Part shown: piece by piece, positions 7,219-27,476 of the stretch
Layout of the letters: every line of letters starts with the position of its first letter
Numbering within the stretch: position 1 is the first letter of the stretch
Assembly: GCF_028993555.1 (NCBI RefSeq)
Contig: NZ_CP118611.1
Span: forward strand, 1,110,001-1,174,000
From: Ensifer adhaerens
Lineage (GTDB): Bacteria; Pseudomonadota; Alphaproteobacteria; Rhizobiales; Rhizobiaceae
Length of the DNA: 64,000 nt
Direction: 5' to 3'
The notes under the pieces: generated by a model
The model's database searches: none
Told to the model about the DNA's origin: nothing
What the model saw: only the letters and a program-made list of their open reading frames with translations
Translations under genes and position numbers: made by a program

Positions 7219-7980
7219 ATGCGAAGAGAAGTGCAATTCAACGGGCAAAGGGACTGGCGAATCGCGCAATATGTCATCGGTGGCATTATTGGTTTCGCCG
7301 TACTCGCCCAGGTTTTGGTCTATCTCAGCCTCGTCGCTCTCGTTGATCGGCCCTATGCCGCCGCCGTAGTTGGCGCCGCGTTGATCTCCCTGTTGATGGG
7401 CGTGCCGCTGATCGTCGTGGCGGCGACCCAGTTTCGCCGGGCACAGCGCCTTCGCAACCAGATCAATCATGTCGTCGCCCACGACGCCACGACGGGCTGC
7501 GTAACCGGCCGCGGGCTGGTCCAGCAGGTCAACGGCCTCGAGCGCCGCCGGCAACGCGCCGGCGAAGAGCTCCACGGAGCACTCATCCATCTCAGGATCA
7601 ACAACCTCGATGATGTCGGTGCGGCTTTCGGCCCGGCCTGGAGCGAGGAACTGCTCCAGTTCGTCGCGTCCACGATCAGCACCTCGGTGCGGCGCGACGA
7701 CATCGTTGCGCGAACCGGCCCTGCGAGCTTCGACGTCCTTTTGGTCGGCGCCAGCGAACAAGATGCCGAGCAGGTCTCCATCCGCCTGACGAAGGCTTTG
7801 GCTTCGGCACACTTCTCGGCAGACGGCAGCAAGGTCGATCTGGCCCTCAGCGTCGGCGGCGCATTGTTCGACGGCAGCGTCGACCTCGAACGGTTGCGCC
7901 GTGCGGCAGCATCCGAGACTGTCCTGGTTGCCGGCGAGGGAACCCAAACCGTCGATTTCGTCCGGCTCCCCTCCGCCTGA
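7219..7980 (+). CDS. Two-TM protein with degenerate GGDEF domain
   Basis: A 253-residue protein with two adjacent membrane helices (about residues 18-42 and 46-70) and a cytoplasmic GGDEF-fold domain from about residue 87 (HDATTGCVTGRGL, the usual opening of the fold) to the end. The catalytic signature is lost: where an active diguanylate cyclase has RxGGDEF, this protein has ARTGPASFDVLL (167-171 = GPASF). It therefore should not make c-di-GMP but could sense, scaffold or bind nucleotide. The open frame begins at a TTG at 7198, but the ATG at 7219 has GGGAG six bases upstream. It lies directly before the secretion operon on the same strand, across 355 bases. Confidence 0.8.
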   Translation: MRREVQFNGQRDWRIAQYVIGGIIGFAVLAQVLVYLSLVALVDRPYAAAVVGAALISLLMGVPLIVVAATQFRRAQRLRNQINHVVAHDATTGCVTGRGLVQQVNGLERRRQRAGEELHGALIHLRINNLDDVGAAFGPAWSEELLQFVASTISTSVRRDDIVARTGPASFDVLLVGASEQDAEQVSIRLTKALASAHFSADGSKVDLALSVGGALFDGSVDLERLRRAAASETVLVAGEGTQTVDFVRLPSA

Positions 7981-8335
7981 TTTGGCGGGCGCCAGGGTCA
8001 GTGCCGAAAAGACGGGTAATCTCCGCTCGCAGCGGCTGAGGCTAAACTATTGTATCGCGCAGACGTTGAGTCGTCGGCAACGTTGCAGTCGCCTGATACT
8101 TCTTGCGGCCCAGAGCACTTGCCGCCGATTTATTTATTTCAATAGGTTACGGTTTCGTTGACTGGCGTACGGATGTTCCATTTTTGCAACATAGCCGTGC
8201 GAAAGCTTGGGACGCTACGGAACCACCCCAAAATTGGTGACCGCCATATATTACCTCTGTATTATCTATCAATAAATTTAGGCAGTTCTAGCGCACGCTC
8301 GGATTAACCAGCATGACGTACTGATTGCGAGGGGG
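7981..8335. promoter_or_regulatory. AT-rich promoter region of the type I secretion operon
   Basis: This region turns strongly AT-rich toward its right end (CCATATATTACC, GTATTATCTATC, AATAAATTTA), in contrast to the GC-rich genes around it. That suggests a regulated promoter, possibly a target of an AT-preferring regulator such as MucR or H-NS-like proteins. It contains the 14-bp sequence shared with the adhesin promoter at 8227-8240. Confidence 0.5.
8227..8240 (+). promoter_or_regulatory. Candidate operator shared with the adhesin promoter
   Basis: The sequence CCCAAAATTGGTGA occurs here, 96 bases before the TolC start codon, and as its exact reverse complement at 15368-15381, 105 bases before the adhesin start codon. 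Its core CCAA-N2-TTGG is symmetric, as protein-binding sites often are. That it is an operator is inferred. Confidence 0.45.
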
Positions 8336-9787
8336 ATGGCATTGAAAGTGGGGAAGAATTTTAAGGGCGGGCTTTTTTCCGTTCTGCTCGCGACAACCGT
8401 ATTTGCAAGTGGCGCCGCGGAAGCGATGACGCTGAGGGAAGCGCTTCAGATTGCGATGGAATCGAATCCGGAAATCGGGCAGTCGATCGAGAATCGCGAG
8501 GCAATCGAATTTGAACTGCGGCAGGCGCGCGGTCTCTATCTGCCGAGCATCGACGTCGAAGCTTCGACGGGTGTTCAACATCTCGAGGACGAGGCCCGCC
8601 GCCTTGGTTCAATCGAGAATGATCCGCTCTATCCTTCCGACGTCGGCCTGACCATCACGCAGAAGCTGTTCGACGGCGGTGGTCGTCGCGCTGAGCTGGA
8701 GCGTCAGGCGGCGCGCGTCGACAGCGCCTCCTTCCGCGTTCTCGAACGGTCAGAAACGATCGGTCTGCAGATCGTCCGCGAATATTTCGAGTATATTCTC
8801 CAGCAGCAAATCGTCGCCGAAGCACGCAAGAACGTCGGCGTGCACCAGTCGATCCTGTCGGATATCAGTTCGCTGATCTCAGGCGGCGCGCTGACCGATG
8901 CCGACCGACAACAGGCGAGTGAACGCCTGTTGTCGGCCAAGGCGCGTCTGCAGGAAGCGGAGGAAGCGCTCGAAACCGTCAAGATCAGCTTCAACCGCCT
9001 GGTCGGCCAGCCGATCACGAAGCCGTCCATGCCGAAGTCGGTGGCCGGCGTCCTGCCAAAGACGCTGGAGACGGCAATCGGTATTGCCCGCGGCAACAAC
9101 CCGCGCATCAAGGCCGCCGATTCCGACATCAGCGCTGCCGACTCGCAGGTGAAGGCTGCGCGCTCGAACATGCTTCCGGAAGTCTTCGCGGAAGGGCGCG
9201 TGCGCACGGGCAACGATATCGGCGGCGAGACCGGCAACAGCTGGGATGCTCAGGCGCGGATCGTGGCGAAGTGGAACCTCTATCGTGGCGGTATCGACAT
9301 CGCCAACGAGCAGGAGCAGATGCGCCGTGCAAGCGAGCAGCGGCTGGTCTTCCACCAGGCGCATCGCGAAGTCGAGGAAGCCGTCCGCATTTCCTGGGAA
9401 CGCCGCAACAGCCAGTACGAGATCTCCCGTACGCTGAACGCGCAGGCGCAGATGAACGTACAGCTCGTCGAATCCTATCGTGAACAGCTCAAGGTCGGAC
9501 AGCGTTCACTGCTTGACGTGCTCGGTGCGCAGAATTCGCGTTTCAATGTCAGCGTTCTGGCGAAAACCTCGCAGTACGCCGCTCTGTTTGCCGAGTACCG
9601 CCTGCTTGCGGCGACCGGCCAGCTCCTGTCGACGATGCAGATCAAGGCGCCGGCCCAGGCCGAAGCCTATGCCCGCAACGAGTTCAATGTCCCGGATACG
9701 CCGCCCACGGAGACCTATCGCCGTGTACCGTCGCGCCAGACGAACGACTTGCCGCTCGATTTGTTGGCGCCGATCCGGCAGAAATGA
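8336..9787 (+). CDS. TolC-family outer-membrane channel of type I secretion
   Basis: A 483-residue outer-membrane efflux protein. A signal peptide occupies residues 1-30 (hydrophobic GGLFSVLLATTVFASGAAEA), followed directly by MTLREALQIAMESNPEI, the usual first helix of TolC proteins. Two repeats of coiled-coil hairpins follow; the second begins near LETAIGIARGNNPRIKAADSD. The C-terminal tail is proline-rich and polar. It is the exit duct for the adhesin encoded 6 kb downstream. The next gene starts 27 bases after it on the same strand, so TolC, the ABC exporter, the adaptor and the RHH protein form one operon. Confidence 0.94.
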   Translation: MALKVGKNFKGGLFSVLLATTVFASGAAEAMTLREALQIAMESNPEIGQSIENREAIEFELRQARGLYLPSIDVEASTGVQHLEDEARRLGSIENDPLYPSDVGLTITQKLFDGGGRRAELERQAARVDSASFRVLERSETIGLQIVREYFEYILQQQIVAEARKNVGVHQSILSDISSLISGGALTDADRQQASERLLSAKARLQEAEEALETVKISFNRLVGQPITKPSMPKSVAGVLPKTLETAIGIARGNNPRIKAADSDISAADSQVKAARSNMLPEVFAEGRVRTGNDIGGETGNSWDAQARIVAKWNLYRGGIDIANEQEQMRRASEQRLVFHQAHREVEEAVRISWERRNSQYEISRTLNAQAQMNVQLVESYREQLKVGQRSLLDVLGAQNSRFNVSVLAKTSQYAALFAEYRLLAATGQLLSTMQIKAPAQAEAYARNEFNVPDTPPTETYRRVPSRQTNDLPLDLLAPIRQK

Positions 9788-9814
9788 TAGTCCTCGTCAG
9801 GGTGGACACAATCG

Positions 9815-11998
9815 GTGGTAGTGCAAAGCATTGACAGGCATTTCCAGATCGGCCCGTCTTTGACTGGCTTTTCCGAGGCGTTCAAGGAGATCTGCATCTT
9901 CTTGAACCGCCCGTCGTCGGATAGCGTACTCTATTCCGACGTTCCTTTCGACGCGCGGTTGCCGAGCGCCGAAGACGTTTCACGCATTGCGGAGCGGGTT
10001 GGCCTGGAAACGGAAATCGTTTCCGGGCGCGAGATCGGCAACCGTGATTTCGTGTACCCGCTGCTGCTCGTCTTCCGCGACGGCAGCGCCATGGCGCTTT
10101 TGGAAGAGGCGCCTGACGGGACGTTGAGCCTTTCGAACAGAGCCGCGGCACTCGGCGATGCGGCGGTGAGACTGTCTGAACTGCAGCTCGGCAATCTCGC
10201 CTATGCTGTGTCCTTCTCGGCTACCTATCTCAATACGGCTTCCGGCCGTGGCGTCGGCGAGGCCCGCAACATCGACCGCAGGCATTGGCTGACAGCCACG
10301 GTCAAGCCCTTCTGGCAGGCCTATGTGCAGGTGGCGATCGCCGCCTTTTTCATCAATGTGCTGGCGCTGGCCGCTCCGCTCTTTACGATGAATGTCTACG
10401 ACCGGATTCTCCCGAACAAGGCGATCGCCACGCTTTGGGTGCTGGCGCTCGGCATCAGCACCGCCATTCTATTTGACTTCCTGCTGAAGACGGTTCGTGC
10501 CGCACTGATCGATTTTGCCGGACGGAAGGCCGATCTGAAGCTCTCCTACATGCTGTTCGAGAAGATCCTGCATGCGACGATGGCATCGCGGCCAGCTTCT
10601 ACCGGCGAGTACGCCAACAGAGCGATGCAGTATGAATTCGTTCGCGAGTTCTTCACGTCGAATACCCTGAGCACCCTCATCGATAGCCTTTTCGTCTTCG
10701 TTTTCATCGCGGCGGTCTACGCGGTCGCAGGCTGGATCGCGCTTATCCCGGCGGTTGCGTTCCTCTTGAGCCTCCTGATCGGTTACGTCGCGCAATACAA
10801 GATCGGCAACCGAGTTGCCGCTGCCTCAAATGAATCTGCCCAGCGTCAGGCGCTATTGGTCGAGACGATCAGCGCCATCGAGACGGTGAAGACGCTGCAT
10901 TCGGAAAAGCAGCTCTTGCGCCGCTGGAACGAACTGGCCAAGCATTCTTCGAACACGGCCGAGCAGATCAAGGAAATCTCCTCCTGGGCCTCACACGCGA
11001 CCCAGTTCGTGCAGCAATTGGTGACGGTCTGCATTGTCGTCGCCGGCGCCTACGAATTCACTGAGGGCAACATCTCCTCGGGTGCGATCATTGCAGCCAG
11101 CATGCTTGCCGGCCGGGCCGTCGCACCGTTAGGGCAGATCGCAATGACGCTGGCCCGACTGCGTCAGGCTATTCTGTCGCTCAAAATCCTGAATGCGGTC
11201 ATGGAGCAGCCCGAGGACCGGCCGGACACGATCGGTTTCGTCAACCGCGAGATCCGCAACGGCAGCATCACTTTCACCAATCTCGACTTCGCCTATCCGG
11301 GGACCGACCACAAAGTCGTCAGCGGCATGAATGTAACGATAAAAGCGGGCGAGCGTGTTGGCATCATTGGCCGCATCGGTTCGGGCAAGACCACGATCGG
11401 ACGGCTCCTCGCAGGCCTCTATGCGCCAAGCGCCGGACGTATTCTGCTCGATGGCGTCGACATCCGGCAGTTGCACCCCTCCGTCGTCCGCTCGGCGGTC
11501 TCCTTCGTATCGCAGAATTCCGACCTGTTTTCCGGCACCATCAAGGAAAACCTGCTGATGGCGAACCCGACCGCCAGCGATGAAGAGGTGGTCGCGGCAG
11601 CGCGACTTGCCGGCGTCGACGACTTCGTCTCCCATCATCCGCGCGGCTACGACATGCCGGTCGGCGAGCGCGGGTCCCAGCTTTCGGGCGGGCAACGACA
11701 GGCGGTTGCCATAGCCCGGCTGTTGTTGCGCAAGCCGAAGGTGGTGTTCCTCGACGAACCGTCCGGGGCCATGGATCTCGCCAGCGAGCGTGAGCTGATC
11801 AACAAGCTCTCCAATGTCTTCAGCAGCGACGTAACCCTTTTGATCTCGACGCACCGCCACAGCATGCTGAGCCTTGTCGATCGCCTGCTTGTTCTCGACC
11901 GCGGGCGCCTCGTCGCCGATGGCCCGAAGGCCGCCGTCATCGAACAGTTGCAACGACGCTCCGGGCCCACCGGACCGGCGGAGGGAGCGGGGCTATGA
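9815..11998 (+). CDS. Type I secretion ABC transporter, LapB-like, with C39-like domain
   Basis: A 727-residue fused permease-ATPase that powers export of the adhesin. Residues 1-130 resemble the C39 peptidase fold but show no catalytic Cys-His arrangement, as in the C39-like domain of HlyB/LapB that only binds substrate. Six membrane helices span about 165-450. The nucleotide-binding domain has Walker A GRIGSGKTT (about 519), signature LSGGQRQ (about 623) and Walker B VVFLDEPSGAMD (about 643). The start is a GTG at 9815, with AGGGTGG 9 bases upstream; a second GTG two codons later is possible. Confidence 0.95.
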   Translation: MVVQSIDRHFQIGPSLTGFSEAFKEICIFLNRPSSDSVLYSDVPFDARLPSAEDVSRIAERVGLETEIVSGREIGNRDFVYPLLLVFRDGSAMALLEEAPDGTLSLSNRAAALGDAAVRLSELQLGNLAYAVSFSATYLNTASGRGVGEARNIDRRHWLTATVKPFWQAYVQVAIAAFFINVLALAAPLFTMNVYDRILPNKAIATLWVLALGISTAILFDFLLKTVRAALIDFAGRKADLKLSYMLFEKILHATMASRPASTGEYANRAMQYEFVREFFTSNTLSTLIDSLFVFVFIAAVYAVAGWIALIPAVAFLLSLLIGYVAQYKIGNRVAAASNESAQRQALLVETISAIETVKTLHSEKQLLRRWNELAKHSSNTAEQIKEISSWASHATQFVQQLVTVCIVVAGAYEFTEGNISSGAIIAASMLAGRAVAPLGQIAMTLARLRQAILSLKILNAVMEQPEDRPDTIGFVNREIRNGSITFTNLDFAYPGTDHKVVSGMNVTIKAGERVGIIGRIGSGKTTIGRLLAGLYAPSAGRILLDGVDIRQLHPSVVRSAVSFVSQNSDLFSGTIKENLLMANPTASDEEVVAAARLAGVDDFVSHHPRGYDMPVGERGSQLSGGQRQAVAIARLLLRKPKVVFLDEPSGAMDLASERELINKLSNVFSSDVTLLISTHRHSMLSLVDRLLVLDRGRLVADGPKAAVIEQLQRRSGPTGPAEGAGL

Positions 11999-12059
11999 TC
12001 CATGCTCTCGACATGACGGCGAAGCAATATCGGTGCGCAAGCGGTGGGGAGGGGCCAGC

Positions 12060-13340
12060 ATGACTGAGAAACCGCCGCTTGCTGCGCGCGCTGGGCTGCT
12101 TGTCATCGGCTTGCTGATCAGCTGCTTCGTCGCCTGGGCAGCGATTGCCGAGGTCGATGAGATCGCACGCGGCGAAGGCAAGGTCATTCCGGTCTCAAAG
12201 ACGCAGATTATCCAGTCGAGCGAGCCCGGAATCGTACGCGAGATCGCGGTGCAGCCCGGTCAGGTCGTCCGCCGTGGCGATCTGATCCTGCGGCTAGACG
12301 ATACGGCCAGTGGTTCCTCGCTGGGCGAACTCGAGGCCAAAGCACGGTCACTGCAGGCGCAGATCGCGCGCCTGGAACTGGAAGAGACCGGGGCCTACGA
12401 CGCAAAATACAATTGTCCCGAAGACATCGCCAAGGCCGCACCTGAAATCTGCGCCAACGAAGAGCAACTGCTTCAGGCGAAGGCCGGCAACTTCAACAAC
12501 AAACTCTCGGTCATGCAGGCACGCGAAGGCCAGCGCCAGAAGGAACTGGCGGAAGCGCAGGCCAACATCACCCGGCTGAGCGAGAGCCTCAAGGTCACCG
12601 AACGGGAACAGGGGCTCATTGAGCCGATGGCCAAGCGCAAGCTTATCGCCCAGACGGAGCTGCTGCGGGTCGAAAAGGAACTGACCGACACGCGGGGCCA
12701 GCTCGCACTCTGGAAGGAGTCCGTCGGCAAGCTTGAGGCAGCGCTCAAGGAAGCGTCGCTGCAGGTGACCGAACTCTCCTTGCAATTGAAACAGGAAGCA
12801 CTCGCAGAAAAGACCGAGGCGCTCTCACAGCTTTCCGTGATCGAGGAAACGATCCGCGGGGCGAGCAGCCGGGTCGCCAACACCGATATCCGTTCTCCGG
12901 TCGACGGCATCATCAACACGCTGGATGTCAACACGGTCGGCGCCTATGTGACGCCGGGCGCGGTGATTGGCGGCGTCGTGCCGACATCGGAGACACTGCT
13001 TGTCGAGGCGCGGCTTTCACCGCGAGACGTCGCCTTCGTGCGCGCGGGCCAACCGGCTTTGATCAAGATCTCCGCCTATGACTTCTCGATCTATGGTGGC
13101 CTGGGCGGGATTGTCGAAACCGTCAGCGCCGACAGTCTCGTCGACCAGAACAATGGCGAGACCTATTATCTCGTGCGCGTCAAAACCGACACGGCTGCGC
13201 TTGTGAAGGACGGACGGGAATTTGCGATCATGCCGGGCATGATCGCATCTGTCGACATCATGACGGGCAAGAAGACGATCCTTACCTATCTGATGAAGCC
13301 GATCAACAAGGCGCGTGAGGAAGCTCTGCGGGAGCGCTGA
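12060..13340 (+). CDS. HlyD/LapC-family periplasmic adaptor
   Basis: A 426-residue membrane-fusion protein linking the inner-membrane exporter to TolC. It has one N-terminal membrane helix (residues 10-28), a lipoyl/barrel half near GKVIPVSKTQIIQSSEPGIV, a long coiled coil (about 95-280, with QARE, QKELAEAQANITRL and EKELTDTRGQLALWK), the closing half RSPVDGIINTLDVNTVGAYV, and the beta-barrel domain. The open frame reaches back into the exporter gene, but the ATG at 12060 follows a GGGGAGGGG ribosome site and matches the family start. Confidence 0.94.
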   Translation: MTEKPPLAARAGLLVIGLLISCFVAWAAIAEVDEIARGEGKVIPVSKTQIIQSSEPGIVREIAVQPGQVVRRGDLILRLDDTASGSSLGELEAKARSLQAQIARLELEETGAYDAKYNCPEDIAKAAPEICANEEQLLQAKAGNFNNKLSVMQAREGQRQKELAEAQANITRLSESLKVTEREQGLIEPMAKRKLIAQTELLRVEKELTDTRGQLALWKESVGKLEAALKEASLQVTELSLQLKQEALAEKTEALSQLSVIEETIRGASSRVANTDIRSPVDGIINTLDVNTVGAYVTPGAVIGGVVPTSETLLVEARLSPRDVAFVRAGQPALIKISAYDFSIYGGLGGIVETVSADSLVDQNNGETYYLVRVKTDTAALVKDGREFAIMPGMIASVDIMTGKKTILTYLMKPINKAREEALRER

Positions 13341-13343
13341 TGG

Positions 13344-13952
13344 ATGAACGATACGCAGCTTCCACCGTCCGCTGAGGACTTGAGCGCGCTGCGGTTCCGC
13401 GTCGTCAGCGTCGGTGGCCAGCGTCGCGGGATCAAGCTCGAAGAAATCTACTGGCAGTGTCTTGGTGAACTTGCCGCACGGCAGGGGCAAAAAATTGCCG
13501 ACATCGTTGCGGCCTGCGAAAGGGAGCTTGAAGGCGAAGGCAATCTCACGGCGCGCTTGCGCTATGTCGCAACGCGCTACATGCGCGACGAGCTTATGAT
13601 TGCCGGGCAACGCAGCAATCTGGCGATCGTCGCCGGCCAGGTTCGCGCCAGCCCGACGCCTGCCTTTGCGCTCACCGGAAACAAGAACATCGTCGCCTTC
13701 AACCCAGCGTTCCTCTCCTTTGTTCAGTCGCGGGTGCTGCCGTCGCAGCAATCGCAGCCAGCGCGCGGCCTGAGGCTCGCATTCGATGTTCAGTTCGTCG
13801 ATCTTGTTCGCCGCTTGAAGGCCGCTCCAGGCGAGCCGCAGCCTGCGGGCTTCACGATCGGCGTGCAGGGGCAGGTGACGCGCGGCAAGCTTAACGCCGC
13901 ACTGGCTCCGCTTGCCGACCAGGACGTGATCATCGGCTTTATCCTGGGGTGA
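13344..13952 (+). CDS. Ribbon-helix-helix (RHH_4-like) protein in the secretion operon
   Basis: A 202-residue cytoplasmic protein starting 3 bases after the adaptor stop. Residues 17-60 (RFRVVSVGGQRRGIKLEEI, then YWQCLGELAARQGQKIADIV) match the RHH_4 pattern: a basic beta strand, then two helices, usually a DNA-binding fold. Residues about 105-200 have a possible PAS-like layout (PAFALTGNKNIVAFNPAFL... and a late GFTIGVQGQVT strand), which is inference only. RHH proteins are not standard parts of a type I secretion system, so this may be an operon-specific regulator of exporter or adhesin expression. Confidence 0.75.
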   Translation: MNDTQLPPSAEDLSALRFRVVSVGGQRRGIKLEEIYWQCLGELAARQGQKIADIVAACERELEGEGNLTARLRYVATRYMRDELMIAGQRSNLAIVAGQVRASPTPAFALTGNKNIVAFNPAFLSFVQSRVLPSQQSQPARGLRLAFDVQFVDLVRRLKAAPGEPQPAGFTIGVQGQVTRGKLNAALAPLADQDVIIGFILG

Positions 13953-13962
13953 ACGTACAGAC

Positions 13963-13995
13963 GCGCCGCCCCCCGCGATGGCGGCAGGGCGGCGC
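13963..13995. terminator. Strong GC hairpin between convergent genes
   Basis: A perfect 9-bp inverted repeat, GCGCCGCCC / GGGCGGCGC, lies between the end of the secretion operon and the end of the LapG-like gene. It lacks a T-run, but its placement suggests a bidirectional transcription stop. Confidence 0.5.
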
Positions 13996-14042
13996 CGGTG
14001 AATAGGCCTGATCGGTTGAGACGTCTCAGTTGGAGCCGACGT

Positions 14043-14969
14043 TCAGCGAACAGCAATGCCTTCGCCGGGCATGACATCAGCGAAAGGTGCGGCAGACGCG
14101 ACCTTGTCACCGGTTGTCTTGATGCCATGGATCCAGGACCGATCGGCGCTGACCGAAAAGAGCGCCTGATAGCTCGGAAGCGCGCGATCGAGCTTCACCT
14201 CGTCGCTCAGGTTATCGAGAATGAAGTGGCCCTGGCTGGTCGTGATTGCGAGCACCGCGTGATAGAGGTTGCGCCGGACATCGCGCAGGACCACGATCGA
14301 CATGGCCTCCGATGGCAGGCCAGCCGCTTTCAGGGCAGCCATCTTCAGGATGGCATAGTCTTCGCAGTCACCCTTGCCGCGGGCGAGAATTTCATCCGGC
14401 GTCGCCCAGTAGTCCTTTGAACCGTAGTTCTCCGTATCCGGCAGGTAGCGCACGATGCGGTTGACCGTGCGGTTGATGCCGCCGAGCTTCTGGCGGAATG
14501 CAAGGCCGCTGGCATTTTCGATCGCCTTGCCGAGAATGCCGCGGGCGGCACAACCGCTCTCTTGTGCACAGCGATTGAAGTCCGCCGCCACGACCGCCGG
14601 ATAGACGGTCTTCCATTTGCGTGCCACCGGGATTGAAGAGACGCGGAAAGCGACCGAATGAAACACGGCGGAGGGTTCCGACTCTGCCGCCGCCTGGCCG
14701 CCGAGGCTCGGGCGAACGCTCACCGCCACCTTTTGCACCTGCCGGCTCGTCAGCGCTTCGGAAGCTTGCTTCGACCAGGTGTTGATCGTCTCCGTCGCGA
14801 CCGCTGCCAGAGGGCTTGCCATGCTCAGCATCTGCAGGAAGAGACCGGGGTGGAGCATGCCGGATTGGCCTGCCTGAACTGATGACGTCGCGGTTAGCGA
14901 CACCAGGCCGATCGCGACCGCCGAAGTCTTCAGGAATTTTCCGCAGTGCTTCCAGCTGTTCTTGTTCAT
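14043..14969 (-). CDS. LapG-like periplasmic transglutaminase-type cysteine protease (BTLCP)
   Basis: A 308-residue protein of the bacterial transglutaminase-like cysteine proteinase family. In Pseudomonas, LapG cuts the N-terminus of the surface adhesin LapA and so releases biofilm cells. A signal peptide ends near residue 33 (VSLTATSSVQA). The triad is visible: Cys202 in GDCEDYAILK, His237 in YHAVLAI and Asp252 in ILDNLSDE. The H-D spacing is 15, and Asp201/Glu203 beside the cysteine match the calcium-binding acids of LapG. The gene is divergent from the giant adhesin, its likely substrate. No LapD-type (HAMP-GGDEF-EAL) inhibitor is encoded in the window. Confidence 0.92.
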   Translation of the reverse strand: MNKNSWKHCGKFLKTSAVAIGLVSLTATSSVQAGQSGMLHPGLFLQMLSMASPLAAVATETINTWSKQASEALTSRQVQKVAVSVRPSLGGQAAAESEPSAVFHSVAFRVSSIPVARKWKTVYPAVVAADFNRCAQESGCAARGILGKAIENASGLAFRQKLGGINRTVNRIVRYLPDTENYGSKDYWATPDEILARGKGDCEDYAILKMAALKAAGLPSEAMSIVVLRDVRRNLYHAVLAITTSQGHFILDNLSDEVKLDRALPSYQALFSVSADRSWIHGIKTTGDKVASAAPFADVMPGEGIAVR

Positions 14970-15367
14970 TGCCGTGTCTCTCGGTTTCGTGAGGACACTG
15001 TACGAATGAAAAGAAAAACGCCGGTAAAGCGGTATGTATTATTTAGTATGTCCCGACTTAATACGCTTTTCGTAAAATTTTATTCAAATTTTATACTTGT
15101 GTATTCTTTCAGAACACGTCACTAGCCACTTTATGGGCGCGCGCCGGAAAAGGCATAGTTGACGGCATGACCCGCGGATTGCCGATCTTGACCGCATGTC
15201 TCGCCGCTCTTCTTGATGCTCCCGCCTCGATAAGCCTGCACGCCGAATCTATCGAAGGGTTCAGATGTGGTGGCGCACGATTTGTGGGACAACTTCATCG
15301 AGCGTCGCGTGCCCGTGTGTAAGATGGTTTCGCACCGATGACTAGAAATACTAAAATTGTACTAAGC

Positions 15368-15381
15368 TCACCAATTTTGGG
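15368..15381 (-). promoter_or_regulatory. Candidate operator shared with the secretion-operon promoter
   Basis: Exact reverse complement of 8227-8240. Here the left part also forms an inverted repeat with an upstream AAAATTG (AAAATTG, 12-base spacer, CAATTTT), so the adhesin promoter may hold two half-sites. It lies 105 bases before the adhesin ATG. Confidence 0.45.
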
Positions 15382-15385
15382 TATT

Positions 15386-15403
15386 AGCATAACATATTAT
15401 GCT
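15386..15403. promoter_or_regulatory. Perfect dyad in the adhesin promoter
   Basis: AGCATAA-CATA-TTATGCT, a 7-bp perfect inverted repeat with a 4-base spacer, 83 bases before the adhesin start and 5 bases from the shared 14-mer. It could be a regulator site; the AT content also suits a -10 region. Confidence 0.4.
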
Positions 15404-15485
15404 GTTTTTCGTTTATCTCTCCGGGAGCGATTGCGATCCAAAAAACTTGGTGTTTTCTTGCCCGCAAAGGTCGAGGGGTATTTCT

Positions 15486-18400
15486 ATGGCAACCGAAGGC
15501 ACCGTAAATTCCAACGAAGCTGTTGCTGCGCAGGCAGAGGCAATCGAGTTCCGCAACGCGCCGGATGGCAAGGCTGACCGACTGGTGGCGCAGGCGGCGA
15601 CAGGAGCCGAGGGAGAGCCCCAGCTCATCGACCCGGCGACCGGAGCCCCTGTGAAAGGTGCTGAAACTGCGCCGCAGACGCCGCCCATGCCCACGACGGT
15701 CACTGCCGATGCTTCGAACGTGGTGCACCTACCCGCAGGCGCGTCGATCGAAAATATCAAGGTCGTCGGTACCGATATCGTTTTGGAACAGCCGGACGGC
15801 TCTACGATCACCATTCACAACGCCGCATTGAAGGTTCCGACCTTCGTCATCGGCGATGCTGAAATCCCGCGCGAAACCCTCGTGGCCGTGCTCGGCGAAA
15901 ACGGCATCAACGTTGCAGCGGGTCCGGACGGGACCATCAGCGTCGTATCAAACCAGAGCAGCGGCGGTGGCTTTGGTGACGCCAACGCGGACATCGGCCA
16001 CGCGGGCCCGGTCATCGATCTTCTACCACCGACGTCCTTGCAGTTCCCGACGCTTGAGGCGACCGAGCTTCTTCCCTTCACACTTGACCCCAATGACAAC
16101 CCCTCGATCATCCCCGATGGCGGCGGCAGCGATCCCAGTGGCATCGTCGTCAGTGATCGGCAGGTCGATGAAGCCGGCCTCGCCAGCGGATCTCGCGCCG
16201 GCGATGGCAGCGCTTCCGTCAGCGGCGTCTTCACGATTTCCGACCCGGATGGCCTCGGCGATATCTCCAGCCTGACGATCAACGGCCAGACTTTCGCAAT
16301 CGGCGGTTTTGTCGGCCAGTCGGTCGCAGGCATCTTCGGCGTGCTGACCATCACCGCGTACGACCCGGTCACCGGCGTGGCGCAATATACCTATGAACTG
16401 ACAAGCCCCGTTGCCGGTGCGGGCCCGGGTGCAAACGTCGAACAGGACCGGGACACCTTCAATCTGACAGTCACAGACGGTGACGGCGCGACGGGGACGG
16501 CGACGCTGCGCATCGACGTCGTCGACGACATTCCGGTGATCGGCATCACGGATCCGGCCTCCTCGAACGTCGTCGAAGGTCAGTCGCTTGCCGGCAACTG
16601 GACGCTTTCGGCCGGTGCTGACGGTGTCAGCACGGTCAACGTCACGGTCGGCAACACCACGCAGACCCTGGCGCTGACGGCCGGCCAGAAGGTGGTGTTT
16701 GCCCTTGCTGAAGGCGCGCTGACTGTCAATGCCGACAAGACCTGGTCGTTTGCTGCGGCCAGCAACCTCAACAATGCCGGTGGCGTCAACGTCACCTTCT
16801 CGCTGGCGGCAACCGACGCCGACGGCGACACCTCCGGCGACAGCCAGACGATCACCGTCACTGATGGTGCCGGCCCGACCGTCGATCCGCTCGCGGCCTC
16901 CGCCTCGCTGACGCTCGATGACCAGAACCTTGCCGATGGCTCGACGCCGGCCGGTTCCGATACGAGCTCCGGCACGATCGGCTTCAACCCCGGTTCGGAC
17001 GCGATCGCGAAGATCGCCTTTGGTGACACCAGCGGCCTGAGCGGTTCGCTGACCTGGGAGCGGGTCTCCGACACGCAGATCGTCGGCCGTGCCGGTGGTG
17101 TGGCGATCGTTACCCTCGACCTGGTGCGCAGCGGCGACAGCGCCACGGTTACGGCGACGCTCAACGACAACTACGCCAACCACCCCGGCATCAATGCCGA
17201 CGATCTCGCGAGCCTTGGCTCGGTCAAGGTGATCGCCTCCGATACCGATGGCGACACGGCCGAGGGCACTGTCTCGGTTTCCGTCTCCGACGACGTGCCG
17301 GTGATCGGCATCACGGATCCGGCCTCTTCGAACGTGGTCGAAGGTCAGTCGCTTGCCGGCAACTGGACGCTTTCGGCCGGTGCTGACGGTGTCAGCACCG
17401 TCAACGTCACGGTCGGCAACACCACGCAAACCCTGGCGCTGACGACCGGCCAGAAGGTGGTGTTTGCCCTTGCTGAAGGCACACTGACGGTCAATGCCGA
17501 CAAGACCTGGTCGTTTGCTGCGGCCAGCAACCTCAACAATGCCGGTGGCGTCAACGTCACCTTCTCGCTGGCGGCAACCGACGCCGAGGGCGACACCACC
17601 AGCGACAGCCAGACGATCACCGTCACCGATGGTAGCGGTCCGTCGATCGCGGCGGAGGGGGGAAGCGCCTGGCTGACGCTCGATGACCAGAACCTCTCGG
17701 ACGGCTCGACGCCGGCCGGTTCGAACACGAACTCCGGCATGATTGGCTTTACCGCCGGTTCGGACGCGATCTCGACGATCGTGTTCGGCAACACCAGCGG
17801 CCTGACCGGGGCATTGACCTGGGATCGCATCTCCGACACGCAGATCGTCGGCCGTGCCGGCGGTGTGGCGATCGTCACCCTCGACCTGGTTCGCAACGGT
17901 GACAGCGCGACGGTCACCGCAACGCTCAACGACAACTACGCCAGCCATCCCGACATCAACGCCGACGATCTCGCGACCCTCGGCTCGGTCAAGGTGATCG
18001 CGTCGGACACCGACGGCGACACGGCTGAGGGCACGATCAACCTGTCGGTCTCTGACGACGTACCTTTGGCGTCGATCGAAGTCGGCGGGAACGTCTCGGA
18101 AGGCACGACGATCAGTGGCTCGTTCGACTTTGCGGCTGGCGCGGATGGAGCAACGCTGACACAGATCAACGGCGCGTCGGTCGGCGCTTTCGATGCGGTT
18201 TCCGGTTGGTCCGCATGGATCGATGTCGGTGCAGGCTCGATCCGGGTCAAGGCAGACGGCAGCTACGAGTTCCAGGCGGACACGCCGACGGTCGGAGCGT
18301 CTCTACCGGTCAATGGCACCTACACGGTGACGGACGGTGACGGCGATACGTCGACGGCAAACTTCGGCTTCTCGGTGACGGACGCCAACAAGCCGACCGG

Positions 18401-21400
18401 TGGCACGGCGTCTGCGAATGTCGACGACGACGGCCTGACCGGCGCCAACCCGGCCCCGGTTGCCGGTGCGGCGACCTTCTCCGGTACACTCGGCGGCAGT
18501 GTCGGTGCGGACGGCGCGGGTGCGAATGGCTTCTCGTTTGCCGGTTTGCATGGCACGAGCGGTACGGTCGGACAAGAGACAGTGAACTATAGCTGGAGCG
18601 GCAACACGCTGACGGCAACAGGTCCACGCGGTGTGTTGTTCACGGTGACCGTGACGAATGCGGCTACAGGTGCCTATACGGTCGAGCTCAAGGACAACGT
18701 GCTGCACACGGCCGGTCCGAACGGCGAGGACAATGTCTCGGTCGGTCTCGGCTACACCGTCACCGACGCAGACAACTCGGTTGCCAATGGCACACTGACT
18801 GTCGCCTTCAACGACGACGTACCTTTGGCGTCGATCGAAGTCGGCGGGAACGTCTCGGAAGGCACGACGATCAGTGGCTCGTTCGACTTTGCGGCTGGCG
18901 CGGATGGAGCAACGCTGACACAGATCAACGGCGCGTCGGTCGGCGCTTTCGATGCGGTTTCCGGTTGGTCCGCATGGATCGATGTCGGTGCAGGCTCGAT
19001 CCGGGTCAAGGCAGACGGCAGCTACGAGTTCCAGGCGGACACGCCGACGGTCGGAGCGTCTCTACCGGTCAATGGCACCTACACGGTGACGGACGGTGAC
19101 GGCGATACGTCGACGGCAAACTTCGGCTTCTCGGTGACGGACGCCAACAAGCCGACCGGTGGCACGGCGTCTGCGAATGTCGACGACGACGGCCTGACCG
19201 GCGCCAACCCGGCCCCGGTTGCCGGTGCGGCGACCTTCTCCGGTACACTCGGCGGCAGTGTCGGTGCGGACGGCGCGGGTGCGAATGGCTTCTCGTTTGC
19301 CGGTTTGCATGGCACGAGCGGTACGGTCGGACAAGAGACAGTGAACTATAGCTGGAGCGGCAACACGCTGACGGCAACAGGTCCACGCGGTGTGTTGTTC
19401 ACGGTGACCGTGACGAATGCGGCTACAGGTGCCTATACGGTCGAGCTCAAGGACAACGTGCTGCACACGGCCGGTCCGAACGGCGAGGACAATGTCTCGG
19501 TCGGTCTCGGCTACACCGTCACCGACGCAGACAACTCGGTTGCCAATGGCACACTGACTGTCGCCTTCAACGACGACGTACCTTTGGCGTCGATCGAAGT
19601 CGGCGGGAACGTCTCGGAAGGCACGACGATCAGTGGCTCGTTCGACTTTGCGGCTGGCGCGGATGGAGCAACGCTGACACAGATCAACGGCGCGTCGGTC
19701 GGCGCTTTCGATGCGGTTTCCGGTTGGTCCGCATGGATCGATGTCGGTGCAGGCTCGATCCGGGTCAAGGCAGACGGCAGCTACGAGTTCCAGGCGGACA
19801 CGCCGACGGTCGGAGCGTCTCTACCGGTCAATGGCACCTACACGGTGACGGACGGTGACGGCGATACGTCGACGGCAAACTTCGGCTTCTCGGTGACGGA
19901 CGCCAACAAGCCGACCGGTGGCACGGCGTCTGCGAATGTCGACGACGACGGCCTGACCGGCGCCAACCCGGCCCCGGTTGCCGGTGCGGCGACCTTCTCC
20001 GGTACACTCGGCGGCAGTGTCGGTGCGGACGGCGCGGGTGCGAATGGCTTCTCGTTTGCCGGTTTGCATGGCACGAGCGGTACGGTCGGACAAGAGACAG
20101 TGAACTATAGCTGGAGCGGCAACACGCTGACGGCAACAGGTCCACGCGGTGTGTTGTTCACGGTGACCGTGACGAATGCGGCTACAGGTGCCTATACGGT
20201 CGAGCTCAAGGACAACGTGCTGCACACGGCCGGTCCGAACGGCGAGGACAATGTCTCGGTCGGTCTCGGCTACACCGTCACCGACGCAGACAACTCGGTT
20301 GCCAATGGCACACTGACTGTCGCCTTCAACGACGACGTACCTTTGGCGTCGATCGAAGTCGGCGGGAACGTCTCGGAAGGCACGACGATCAGTGGCTCGT
20401 TCGACTTTGCGGCTGGCGCGGATGGAGCAACGCTGACACAGATCAACGGCGCGTCGGTCGGCGCTTTCGATGCGGTTTCCGGTTGGTCCGCATGGATCGA
20501 TGTCGGTGCAGGCTCGATCCGGGTCAAGGCAGACGGCAGCTACGAGTTCCAGGCGGACACGCCGACGGTCGGAGCGTCTCTACCGGTCAATGGCACCTAC
20601 ACGGTGACGGACGGTGACGGCGATACGTCGACGGCAAACTTCGGCTTCTCGGTGACGGACGCCAACAAGCCGACCGGTGGCACGGCGTCTGCGAATGTCG
20701 ACGACGACGGCCTGACCGGCGCCAACCCGGCCCCGGTTGCCGGTGCGGCGACCTTCTCCGGTACACTCGGCGGCAGTGTCGGTGCGGACGGCGCGGGTGC
20801 GAATGGCTTCTCGTTTGCCGGTTTGCATGGCACGAGCGGTACGGTCGGACAAGAGACAGTGAACTATAGCTGGAGCGGCAACACGCTGACGGCAACAGGT
20901 CCACGCGGTGTGTTGTTCACGGTGACCGTGACGAATGCGGCTACAGGTGCCTATACGGTCGAGCTCAAGGACAACGTGCTGCACACGGCCGGTCCGAACG
21001 GCGAGGACAATGTCTCGGTCGGTCTCGGCTACACCGTCACCGACGCAGACAACTCGGTTGCCAATGGCACACTGACTGTCGCCTTCAACGACGACGTACC
21101 TTTGGCGTCGATCGAAGTCGGCGGGAACGTCTCGGAAGGCACGACGATCAGTGGCTCGTTCGACTTTGCGGCTGGCGCGGATGGAGCAACGCTGACACAG
21201 ATCAACGGCGCGTCGGTCGGCGCTTTCGATGCGGTTTCCGGTTGGTCCGCATGGATCGATGTCGGTGCAGGCTCGATCCGGGTCAAGGCAGACGGCAGCT
21301 ACGAGTTCCAGGCGGACACGCCGACGGTCGGAGCGTCTCTACCGGTCAATGGCACCTACACGGTGACGGACGGTGACGGCGATACGTCGACGGCAAACTT

Positions 21401-24400
21401 CGGCTTCTCGGTGACGGACGCCAACAAGCCGACCGGTGGCACGGCGTCTGCGAATGTCGACGACGACGGCCTGACCGGCGCCAACCCGGCCCCGGTTGCC
21501 GGTGCGGCGACCTTCTCCGGTACACTCGGCGGCAGTGTCGGTGCGGACGGCGCGGGTGCGAATGGCTTCTCGTTTGCCGGTTTGCATGGCACGAGCGGTA
21601 CGGTCGGACAAGAGACAGTGAACTATAGCTGGAGCGGCAACACGCTGACGGCAACAGGTCCACGCGGTGTGTTGTTCACGGTGACCGTGACGAATGCGGC
21701 TACAGGTGCCTATACGGTCGAGCTCAAGGACAACGTGCTGCACACGGCCGGTCCGAACGGCGAGGACAATGTCTCGGTCGGTCTCGGCTACACCGTCACC
21801 GACGCAGACAACTCGGTTGCCAATGGCACACTGACTGTCGCCTTCAACGACGACGTACCTTTGGCGTCGATCGAAGTCGGCGGGAACGTCTCGGAAGGCA
21901 CGACGATCAGTGGCTCGTTCGACTTTGCGGCTGGCGCGGATGGAGCAACGCTGACACAGATCAACGGCGCGTCGGTCGGCGCTTTCGATGCGGTTTCCGG
22001 TTGGTCCGCATGGATCGATGTCGGTGCAGGCTCGATCCGGGTCAAGGCAGACGGCAGCTACGAGTTCCAGGCGGACACGCCGACGGTCGGAGCGTCTCTA
22101 CCGGTCAATGGCACCTACACGGTGACGGACGGTGACGGCGATACGTCGACGGCAAACTTCGGCTTCTCGGTGACGGACGCCAACAAGCCGACCGGTGGCA
22201 CGGCGTCTGCGAATGTCGACGACGACGGCCTGACCGGCGCCAACCCGGCCCCGGTTGCCGGTGCGGCGACCTTCTCCGGTACACTCGGCGGCAGTGTCGG
22301 TGCGGACGGCGCGGGTGCGAATGGCTTCTCGTTTGCCGGTTTGCATGGCACGAGCGGTACGGTCGGACAAGAGACAGTGAACTATAGCTGGAGCGGCAAC
22401 ACGCTGACGGCAACAGGTCCACGCGGTGTGTTGTTCACGGTGACCGTGACGAATGCGGCTACAGGTGCCTATACGGTCGAGCTCAAGGACAACGTGCTGC
22501 ACACGGCCGGTCCGAACGGCGAGGACAATGTCTCGGTCGGTCTCGGCTACACCGTCACCGACGCAGACAACTCGGTTGCCAATGGCACACTGACTGTCGC
22601 CTTCAACGACGACGTACCTTTGGCGTCGATCGAAGTCGGCGGGAACGTCTCGGAAGGCACGACGATCAGTGGCTCGTTCGACTTTGCGGCTGGCGCGGAT
22701 GGAGCAACGCTGACACAGATCAACGGCGCGTCGGTCGGCGCTTTCGATGCGGTTTCCGGTTGGTCCGCATGGATCGATGTCGGTGCAGGCTCGATCCGGG
22801 TCAAGGCAGACGGCAGCTACGAGTTCCAGGCGGACACGCCGACGGTCGGAGCGTCTCTACCGGTCAATGGCACCTACACGGTGACGGACGGTGACGGCGA
22901 TACGTCGACGGCAAACTTCGGCTTCTCGGTGACGGACGCCAACAAGCCGACCGGTGGCACGGCGTCTGCGAATGTCGACGACGACGGCCTGACCGGCGCC
23001 AACCCGGCCCCGGTTGCCGGTGCGGCGACCTTCTCCGGTACACTCGGCGGCAGTGTCGGTGCGGACGGCGCGGGTGCGAATGGCTTCTCGTTTGCCGGTT
23101 TGCATGGCACGAGCGGTACGGTCGGACAAGAGACAGTGAACTATAGCTGGAGCGGCAACACGCTGACGGCAACAGGTCCACGCGGTGTGTTGTTCACGGT
23201 GACCGTGACGAATGCGGCTACAGGTGCCTATACGGTCGAGCTCAAGGACAACGTGCTGCACACGGCCGGTCCGAACGGCGAGGACAATGTCTCGGTCGGT
23301 CTCGGCTACACCGTCACCGACGCAGACAACTCGGTTGCCAATGGCACACTGACTGTCGCCTTCAACGACGACGTACCTTTGGCGTCGATCGAAGTCGGCG
23401 GGAACGTCTCGGAAGGCACGACGATCAGTGGCTCGTTCGACTTTGCGGCTGGCGCGGATGGAGCAACGCTGACACAGATCAACGGCGCGTCGGTCGGCGC
23501 TTTCGATGCGGTTTCCGGTTGGTCCGCATGGATCGATGTCGGTGCAGGCTCGATCCGGGTCAAGGCAGACGGCAGCTACGAGTTCCAGGCGGACACGCCG
23601 ACGGTCGGAGCGTCTCTACCGGTCAATGGCACCTACACGGTGACGGACGGTGACGGCGATACGTCGACGGCAAACTTCGGCTTCTCGGTGACGGACGCCA
23701 ACAAGCCGACCGGTGGCACGGCGTCTGCGAATGTCGACGACGACGGCCTGACCGGCGCCAACCCGGCCCCGGTTGCCGGTGCGGCGACCTTCTCCGGTAC
23801 ACTCGGCGGCAGTGTCGGTGCGGACGGCGCGGGTGCGAATGGCTTCTCGTTTGCCGGTTTGCATGGCACGAGCGGTACGGTCGGACAAGAGACAGTGAAC
23901 TATAGCTGGAGCGGCAACACGCTGACGGCAACAGGTCCACGCGGTGTGTTGTTCACGGTGACCGTGACGAATGCGGCTACAGGTGCCTATACGGTCGAGC
24001 TCAAGGACAACGTGCTGCACACGGCCGGTCCGAACGGCGAGGACAATGTCTCGGTCGGTCTCGGCTACACCGTCACCGACGCAGACAACTCGGTTGCCAA
24101 TGGCACACTGACTGTCGCCTTCAACGACGACGTACCTTTGGCCGTTTTACCTGACCATGCGATCGTCACAAATACGGCAGGAAGTCCCGTTATCTTCGAA
24201 TTGGATCAGGACGGAACGCTCAGTAACAACTATGGCGCTGACGGCACTGGTACTGCGCGGTTCCCCAGTTCACTTGGAAGCCAAGCTAGCGGCCTAACGT
24301 CTAATGGCGTTCCGATTGTGTATCACGTCTCTCCAGATGGGCTCACCCTCACGGGCTTCGCAGGTGCGACCTCGATCTTTGTTATCAATCTCAATCCGAC

Positions 24401-26248: not shown

Positions 26249-26267
26249 CGCAGGCGGTTTGAACGTC

Positions 26268-27476
26268 ATGTCGTACGCTGTCGTTTCACCGGCAAGGCGG
26301 GTGTCGTCCTGTTGGCAGTGGCTAGCCGTTGGCCTCCTCGCGCTCGGTACACTCACAGGCTGCCAGGGCGCGCCTACGCCCCAGGATGTTCTCGACGTGG
26401 AATCGCCGCAGGCGCGGCACGCCCGGCGCGCGGCCGAACATGCTGTGAAGCCGCAGGAGACCTTCGGCAGCGGTGCGACGCGGATAGCGCTCATCACCGC
26501 GTTGATGGCACCGTCGGGAGAGACGGTACGCGAACGCGATATCCGGGACGGCGCGGCGCTCGCCATTGATGAGGTGGGCGGCGGCCAACTCTCGTTGCTG
26601 GTCGAGAACACCGACGGTTCGCCACAGCAGATCCAGGAAGCGGCAAAGCGGCTCGCCGGCCAGAACGTCGCGCTCGTTGCACTGTCGGTTGCCGACGTAC
26701 CTGTCGCCACCGTGCGCCAGGGCCTCGGCTCTTCCCGGGCGCCGCTTTTGGCGCTGCGCGGCAACGCCGCCGAGCGACCGGCAGGCACTTTCGCGTTCGT
26801 TTCCGATCGTATCGACAGCGCCGTCGAGGGGGCGTCCTATGCGGTGGCGTCCGGACGCAAGCGGCTCGTCGTGCTCCTGCCGGCCGACGTCTCCGCCGCC
26901 GAGCGACAAAGGCTCGATCGCGGACTTGCCGGCTATGGCATCAAACCGGCGCTCGTCGCCGTAACGGGGACCACGGCATTTACCGACGACGCCGCCTCCA
27001 AGACCACGTTGAAAGACACGGACGGCGTGCTCCTGATCGGATCGGGAGATCCGGATGTCGGCGCTCTTTCGCAACTCAAGGCCAACGGCTACCTGAAACC
27101 GAACGCGATGGTCGTCGGAAGTTCCGGATGGGCGAATACCGCCTACAAGCGCCCTGAGCTCTCAGGAAGCCATCTGTGTCTGTTTGGTCCTGAAAATGGT
27201 TCGCGGATGACCTCACGCTATCTCGATCGATACGAGAGGGCCGCGGGCACCGATGCGGCCTACGGCTTCGACGTGATCGCGCTTGCCGCCGGCCTTGTGC
27301 GCAGCCAGGGCGAAACCGCCATCACGCAGGAGAGCCTTCGATCTCCAAACGGCTTCATCGGCGCGGCAGCAGCCTTCCGCTTCGGGAAGAACGGTTCCGT
27401 CGAGCGAACCTGCGCGATCTACCAGGTGACGTCGGGGAGCGTGAAACTCATGGATCCGGCGCCACGCTCGTTCTGA
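26268..27476 (+). CDS. Lipoprotein with type 1 periplasmic-binding fold (LpoA/branched-chain-BP-like)
   Basis: A 402-residue predicted lipoprotein: lipobox LTGC near residue 32, then a linker rich in Ala and Arg. A two-lobe fold of the leucine-binding-protein/PBP-activator type begins near TRIALITALMAPSGETVRERDIRDGAALA. Proteins of this fold either feed ABC importers or, like LpoA, activate penicillin-binding proteins. No transporter genes are adjacent, so a structural or cell-wall role is as likely. The frame also has a TTG at 26259; the ATG at 26268 is chosen. It follows the small secreted protein and probably shares its transcript. Confidence 0.75.
   Translation: MSYAVVSPARRVSSCWQWLAVGLLALGTLTGCQGAPTPQDVLDVESPQARHARRAAEHAVKPQETFGSGATRIALITALMAPSGETVRERDIRDGAALAIDEVGGGQLSLLVENTDGSPQQIQEAAKRLAGQNVALVALSVADVPVATVRQGLGSSRAPLLALRGNAAERPAGTFAFVSDRIDSAVEGASYAVASGRKRLVVLLPADVSAAERQRLDRGLAGYGIKPALVAVTGTTAFTDDAASKTTLKDTDGVLLIGSGDPDVGALSQLKANGYLKPNAMVVGSSGWANTAYKRPELSGSHLCLFGPENGSRMTSRYLDRYERAAGTDAAYGFDVIALAAGLVRSQGETAITQESLRSPNGFIGAAAAFRFGKNGSVERTCAIYQVTSGSVKLMDPAPRSF

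Follow-up and report, generated by a model that had tools for sequence, protein, structure and literature searches.

Does a bacterium that displays a giant surface adhesin switch on the adhesin and its exporter through one signal? A locus of Ensifer adhaerens raises this question. Within a window of 64,000 nucleotides (assembly GCF_028993555.1, contig NZ_CP118611.1, positions 1,110,001 to 1,174,000), which is the whole stretch of DNA analysed, a type I secretion operon with a tolC-type exporter gene lies beside the gene for a LapA-like adhesin, and a first-pass annotation had pointed to one 14-bp sequence present in both promoters in opposite orientation. We examined this element in its own genome and in relatives. 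The results make it fairly likely that CCCA-(mostly A/T)4-TGGT is a single type of operator, through which a dimeric regulator would couple the exporter, the adhesin and enzymes of cyclic di-GMP (c-di-GMP) metabolism.

A near-palindrome before the exporter and adhesin genes

The 14-mer CCCAAAATTGGTGA is located at 8227-8240 on the forward strand, and its exact reverse complement at 15368-15381, just as the first-pass annotation had placed them. The distance to the start codon is 95 bases for tolC (ATG at 8336) and 104 bases for the adhesin (conserved ATG at 15486), one base less in each case than the 96 and 105 given earlier. In the genome of 7,773,605 bases these are the only two exact copies; no place differs from the 14-mer by one mismatch, and 20 further places differ by exactly two. 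The word CCAAAATTGG occurs nine times genome-wide, and the 12-mer described below is matched at 17 places with at most one mismatch. The motif is thus rare, although the annotation had allowed that it might prove frequent genome-wide and so undo the proposal. Chance sharing was estimated by shuffling the two intergenic regions (355 and 517 bp, with 51% and 46% G+C) as a pair 5000 times, with dinucleotide composition preserved. A word of at least 14 bases common to both promoters on either strand arose in 8 of the 5000 pairs (0.0016), and one of at least 12 bases at a frequency of 0.025, which shows that the original estimate of about 0.001 was fair.

To follow the element in relatives, we used a genus set of 16 Ensifer genomes. 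Twelve carry the adhesin start (E ≤ 1e-3), TolC (E ≤ 1e-100) and a ribbon-helix-helix (RHH) protein (E ≤ 1e-5), and are referred to as module-bearing; in the remaining four (G001, G003, G004 and G005) none of these is found at the same limits. Alignment of the promoters trims the match to a 12-bp near-palindrome, CCCAAAWTTGGT, with the core CCA-N4-TGG. The last two bases (GA) of the tolC copy are not conserved, and after the core the tolC relatives read GGTGG, GGTCA, GGTAG and so on. A length of 14 bp was therefore too generous. The core first proposed, CCAA-N2-TTGG, gives way to CCA-N4-TGG in the same manner, while the accompanying suggestion of a rare, dyad-symmetric element suited to a dimeric reader stands. 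Because the conserved core is symmetric, the opposite orientation of the two copies means little.

Across the 16 genomes we counted 27 matches to CCCAAAWTTGGT, 11 in tolC promoters, 11 in adhesin promoters and 5 elsewhere, and none in the four genomes that lack the module. Within each genome the element is nearly unique. It is found in 11 of the 12 tolC and 11 of the 12 adhesin promoters of the module-bearing genomes, and the core CCA-N4-TGG is present in all 12 of each. The two exceptions, the tolC promoter of E. canadensis (G014; CCCAAAAGTGGT) and the adhesin promoter of G006 (CCCAAAAATGGT), both keep the core. Both sites are also present in S. chiapasense, which comes from a separate collection. 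The script alignment of adhesin promoters covered 12 of 13 taxa, and the G014 adhesin site was read from a separate alignment. At both promoters the element is kept while its immediate flanks vary, with the CCA and TGG arms retained. An open screen for gapped palindromes, covering 8 of the 13 Ensifer-clade taxa, returned CCA-N4-TGG (with words nested in it) as the only one present in 70% or more of each promoter set (8/8 and 8/8); the same screen of seven Sinorhizobium-branch species gave a single weak 3-base match. Within Ensifer, the comparison of promoters that the annotation had suggested therefore bears it out, as the element is conserved before orthologous exporter and adhesin genes.

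Sites at c-di-GMP genes

A relaxed pattern, MCCAAAWWTGGT, has 57 matches in the 16 Ensifer genomes, compared with 6 for the reversed control. Eleven lie before tolC, 12 before the adhesin gene, 13 before a gene that encodes an MHYT-GGDEF-EAL protein, and 21 at other places. The MHYT-GGDEF-EAL gene is found in all 16 genomes, and in the E. adhaerens genome under study this third site lies 88 bp before it. The core CCA-N4-TGG is present upstream of the gene in 14 of the 16 genomes, the two without it being G008 and G005. The mean identity of the site is 0.93, compared with 0.59 for the 40 bp upstream and 0.80 for the 20 bp downstream. Four of the 21 other matches are one orthologous site (G005, G011, G013 and G014), located between a GGDEF-EAL gene and a divergently oriented ABC ATPase gene.

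Of the remaining 17 matches, some fall in coding sequence or in a terminator-like hairpin; another site, about 101 bp upstream of a membrane-protein-like gene, was seen in G003, G015 and G002 only, which are close relatives (~93% DNA identity). The sites within a transporter-like frame (G015, G002), a GntR/MocR-like frame (G010) and the terminator-like hairpin (G014), all three features named by eye, were taken as chance. A site 155 bp upstream of a second TolC-type gene in E. adhaerens (G009) was likewise set aside as chance, as its three relatives do not keep the site.

These positions suggest how such a circuit may work. A core Ensifer regulator, for which the RHH gene would be dispensable, would bind the exporter, adhesin and GGDEF-EAL sites, and exporter, cargo and c-di-GMP turnover would then change together. 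Judged from the arrangement of sites, one protein probably tunes both attachment and the second messenger of attachment. Because the adhesin is LapA-like and a LapG-like protease is encoded beside it, c-di-GMP probably also governs adhesin release. A more specific proposal, that the reader is an undescribed core transcription factor of Ensifer with a small adhesion and c-di-GMP regulon reached through CCCA-N4-TGGT (the type I secretion exporter, the LapA-like adhesin, the MHYT-GGDEF-EAL protein and, in some species, a second GGDEF-EAL protein), is a real possibility that we hold tentatively.

Weight of the evidence and candidate readers

Several observations weigh against a single operator shared by these genes. 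The Ensifer genomes are related, so the counts are not independent events. Conservation is not peculiar to the motif: its window ranks 24th of 319 in the tolC alignment, which takes in the first tolC codons, and 11th of 159 in the adhesin alignment, and other stretches are conserved too. The MHYT site comes only 38th among 139 windows, since conservation there extends to the core promoter and the leader. Both Ensifer promoter sets also have in common two non-palindromic 7-mers, of which one is the ribosome-site word CGAGGGG. When three mismatches to the 14-mer are allowed, the window holds 3 matches, with 3.28 expected. The fourth site might serve either of its flanking genes, lying about 370 bp from the GGDEF-EAL gene and about 300 bp from the divergent ABC ATPase gene. 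The promoter layout adds two further difficulties. A consensus scan lists an adhesin promoter (TTCGCA/TAAAAT, 15329-15357; 1 found, 0.8 expected) upstream of the site, and the spacing from the site to the −10 element that we favour differs, at 21 bases for tolC and 13 for the adhesin.

Results from outside Ensifer point the same way. Promoters of other genera were scanned with a weight matrix trained on four distinct Ensifer variants (chosen weights 3, 2, 1 and 1), with p values each taken from 60 random sequences and promoter ends partly estimated. This matrix found no site in seven Sinorhizobium-branch tolC promoters, one of them deposited as Ensifer sp. LCM 4579; in 15 adhesin promoters from outside Ensifer it found none that was strong, the best being that of Aminobacter (p ~0.03). 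In 70 genomes of other genera, MCCAAAWWTGGT matched 159 times and the reversed control 118 times, a much smaller excess than the 57 against 6 in Ensifer. Sixty of the 159 loci were checked, mostly from genomes with low control counts but with some AT-rich ones in a subset of 29; none lay near a GGDEF, EAL or TolC gene, and there was one weak ABC match. Among the 19 other tolC promoters, these seven included, clear sites were seen in SL42, BG4, NXC24 and R. giardinii, a site with one imperfect arm in CB3090 and a weaker one in CCGE531 (p ~0.02); in some Rhizobium and Pararhizobium, tolC thus carries sites, though weaker than in Ensifer. BG4 has a further site before a gene that adjoins lapG (p ~0.02). 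A 50-kb stretch of S. meliloti pSymB contained no site at up to two mismatches, the galactoglucan genes apparently lying outside that stretch. Outside Ensifer the element was thus not found kept in both promoters, and the support for a coupled circuit, as read from the DNA, is confined to Ensifer.

A chance match combined with general promoter conservation, and no common reader at all, would account for some of these facts. A short palindrome is easily met, the 12 genomes share ancestry, and other blocks of the tolC and adhesin promoters are equally well conserved. However, the shuffles, the uniqueness of the exact 14-mers in the genome, the retention of the arms at both sites within variable immediate flanks, and two more conserved intergenic sites, each by a GGDEF-EAL gene, all speak against it, and we regard this explanation as unlikely. 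Pairing between two mRNA leaders is far less probable still. In its favour, each copy is the reverse complement of the other, the two lie some 95-105 bases ahead of their start codons, and the adhesin promoter listed by the consensus scan would allow the adhesin copy, which follows it, to be transcribed. On the other hand, the predicted tolC −10 is downstream of the tolC copy, and a tolC site that reads CCCAAATTTGGT faces an unchanged adhesin ACCAATTTTGGG, so that symmetry within the site is kept while pairing is broken without compensation. In addition, a search of Rfam at E ≤ 0.5 over 7900-15700 gave no match.

If a protein reads the site, the RHH protein whose gene closes the exporter operon, named as candidate by the first-pass annotation, would be the natural choice for a dedicated local regulator of tolC and the adhesin gene. 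Among the proteins seen in the conserved module it alone is predicted to bind DNA; its gene accompanies the module in 12 of 12 genomes, and the four genomes without it have no CCCAAAWTTGGT. Yet the gene is not present wherever a site is conserved: G001, G003, G004 and G005 have no RHH homologue (E ≤ 1e-5), and the first three keep the MHYT site while G005 has the other GGDEF-EAL site. Moreover, none of the 21 aligned RHH sequences departs from R-[RH]-G-I-[KR]-L-E in the putative DNA-reading strand; five of them belong to the Sinorhizobium branch, where no site was found in either promoter. Conserved sites in genomes without a homologue mean that the RHH protein is not the sole reader and that the product of a core gene is more likely; the original assignment now appears improbable. 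The C-terminal half of this protein, behind the RHH domain, looks PAS-like by eye (ALTGNKNIVAFNPAF), with no Pfam match there.

A known global regulator (MucR, PraR, ExpR/WggR or VisN/VisR) could also read the site. This would refine the reading of one operator and one regulator, so that the probabilities of the two overlap, and we consider it possible but on the unlikely side. Control of diguanylate cyclase genes and biofilm by VisN/VisR in A. tumefaciens resembles the set of targets seen here (available extract of PMC4018554), which makes this pair an attractive lead, and PraR-bound promoters of R. leguminosarum include those of rap adhesin genes (extract of PMC4149787). The PraR consensus in the available extracts, CAAC-N5-GTTG or TTGCAA, does not fit CCA-N4-TGG, and we rejected the shared element as a PraR site; TTGCAA does occur elsewhere in the tolC promoter. 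The parts of the literature covered by our search contained no site sequence for MucR, ExpR, WggR or VisNR, and so few consensus sites would be unexpected for a global regulator.

Promoter layout, the module and related systems

To judge the sign of the regulation, we compared the position of the element with predicted promoters. At tolC the site and the weak predicted −35 share two bases, at the start of the −35, and 21 bp separate the end of the site from the conserved TATTAT. The −35 hexamer GTGACC is itself not conserved, while TGTATTAT is conserved in the Ensifer alignment. At the adhesin gene, a TATTAT at 15395-15400, 13 bp after the site and inside the palindrome CATA-N6-TATG, is a possible −10 and the one we favour, in which case the site would sit at the −35 position. 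With the promoter from the consensus scan, the site would instead fall just after the start of transcription. Since either layout and the unequal spacing would be harder for an activator that contacts the polymerase, we lean slightly towards a repressor that blocks RNA polymerase, with an activator only a little less probable; the starts themselves are predicted.

Each promoter also has a block of its own (Table 1). The tolC-only block TGTTCCATTTTTGCAACA, the most deeply kept before tolC, has TTGCAA in 16 of 17 promoters, and R. giardinii reads TTACAA. The adhesin leader is strongly conserved at 15430-15485, just before the start codon, and Sinorhizobium-branch adhesin leaders contain inverted CAAGAATT/AATTCTTG-like arms near the ribosome site, which are possibly a leader structure.

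Table 1. Genes, candidate operator sites and promoter elements in the window
Feature	Coordinates	Strand	Basis or remark
tolC-type outer-membrane exporter gene	8336..9787	+	PF02321
Type I secretion ABC transporter	9815..11998	+	PF00664, PF00005
HlyD-type membrane fusion protein, open frame with the true start inside	11874..13340	+	PF13437
RHH_4 protein, last gene of the exporter operon	13344..13952	+	PF13467; 12/16 Ensifer genomes at E ≤ 1e-5
LapG-like periplasmic cysteine protease	14043..14969	-	PF06035
Giant repeat adhesin, LapA-like, with type I secretion target domain	15486..25799	+	TIGR03660 repeats, TIGR03661 C-terminal target, RTX repeat
Operator-like near-palindrome CCCAAAATTGGT before tolC	8227..8238		Conservation in Ensifer tolC promoters
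Same near-palindrome before the adhesin gene, ACCAATTTTGGG on the + strand	15370..15381		Conservation in Ensifer adhesin promoters
Predicted tolC promoter, weak −35 GTGACC (8237-8242), −10 TATTAT (8260-8265)	8237..8265	+	Consensus scan, 1 found vs 0.4 expected
tolC-only conserved block TGTTCCATTTTTGCAACA with TTGCAA	8174..8191		Recognisable in 17/17 aligned tolC promoters
Adhesin-only palindrome GCATAACATATTATGC (CATA-N6-TATG)	15387..15402		8/8 Ensifer and 7/7 Sinorhizobium-branch adhesin promoters examined

The adhesin is roughly 3,400 residues long and combines T1SS-143 repeats with a type I secretion target domain. An ATG further upstream, at 15399, also lies in its open frame, but it is the start at 15486 (MATEGT) that relatives keep. 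At 18303-20225, minus-strand frames recur word for word at intervals of 759 bases, which indicates near-identical long repeats inside the adhesin gene. The pairing typical of LapA and LapG, a giant adhesin with a type I target domain and a bacterial transglutaminase-like cysteine protease (BTLCP), is recognised here by TIGR03660, TIGR03661 and PF06035. Against the NCBIfam LapG equivalog model, the protease scores 73.4 bits, well below the cut-off of 320.

The window also encodes a GGDEF protein at the module, and the order GGDEF-tolC-ABC-HlyD-RHH-lapG was found in all 16 named relatives (L087-L102). This comparison used positions only, as its adhesin identities, and apparently its HlyD ones, are underestimates; a seventeenth match, Perlucidibaca (25% identity), does not enter any count. 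The adhesin start adjoins lapG in the eight relatives outside the Ensifer clade and in most Ensifer ones; in strain SD006 (G013) the adhesin gene and tolC are on different contigs. After the adhesin gene comes a gene for a periplasmic binding protein (26259-27476; PF13458). Genes annotated as ABC substrate-binding also lie beside the module in E. canadensis and Rhizobium Q54, and this gene is possibly a further member of the module.

Comparison with known systems shows which parts of the proposed circuit have precedents. A LapA-type adhesin under a c-di-GMP-linked regulator is already known in Pseudomonas: in Pseudomonas putida, FleQ, a DNA-binding regulator linked to c-di-GMP, directly controls the lapA promoter (extract of PMC5026340), and a similar c-di-GMP-linked control of a LapA-type adhesin promoter is proposed here. 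The biofilm targets of FleQ given in that extract, however, are lapA and the cellulose genes, and it does not mention the adhesin exporter; no FleQ-like reader was identified in Ensifer, where no search aimed at one was made. The Pseudomonas LapA-LapG-LapD system, in which, according to partial sources, c-di-GMP inhibits LapG through LapD, likewise has a giant adhesin secreted by type I and a LapG-type protease; in E. adhaerens the two genes adjoin, but the protease differs from Pseudomonas LapG in its low score against the NCBIfam model.

Among rhizobial regulators, PraR of Rhizobium leguminosarum represses rap adhesin genes, and TTGCAA is a consensus at the promoters that it binds (extract of PMC4149787). 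Like the element described here, its site is palindromic with 4-bp arms and its targets include genes of secreted adhesins, but the letters of the two sites differ (extracts of PMC4149787 and PMC5527310). VisN/VisR of Agrobacterium tumefaciens regulate diguanylate cyclase genes and affect attachment, a comparable rhizobial regulation of c-di-GMP genes together with attachment; the extract of PMC4018554 does not mention a link to a type I exporter or a LapA-like adhesin. A literature search with the letters of the motif and rhizobia found, in the extracts returned, no paper on a rhizobial regulator, and a search on Ensifer adhaerens adhesin and type I secretion found nothing on Ensifer adhaerens.

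To our knowledge, little is understood of when rhizobia display their giant adhesins. If one regulator does read these sites, a single switch would set both the supply of the adhesin and the second messenger that governs its release, and the adhesin module, which only some species carry, would be wired into a c-di-GMP circuit common to all. With a 12-bp site defined and three or four targets predicted for it, the timing of adhesin display becomes testable.

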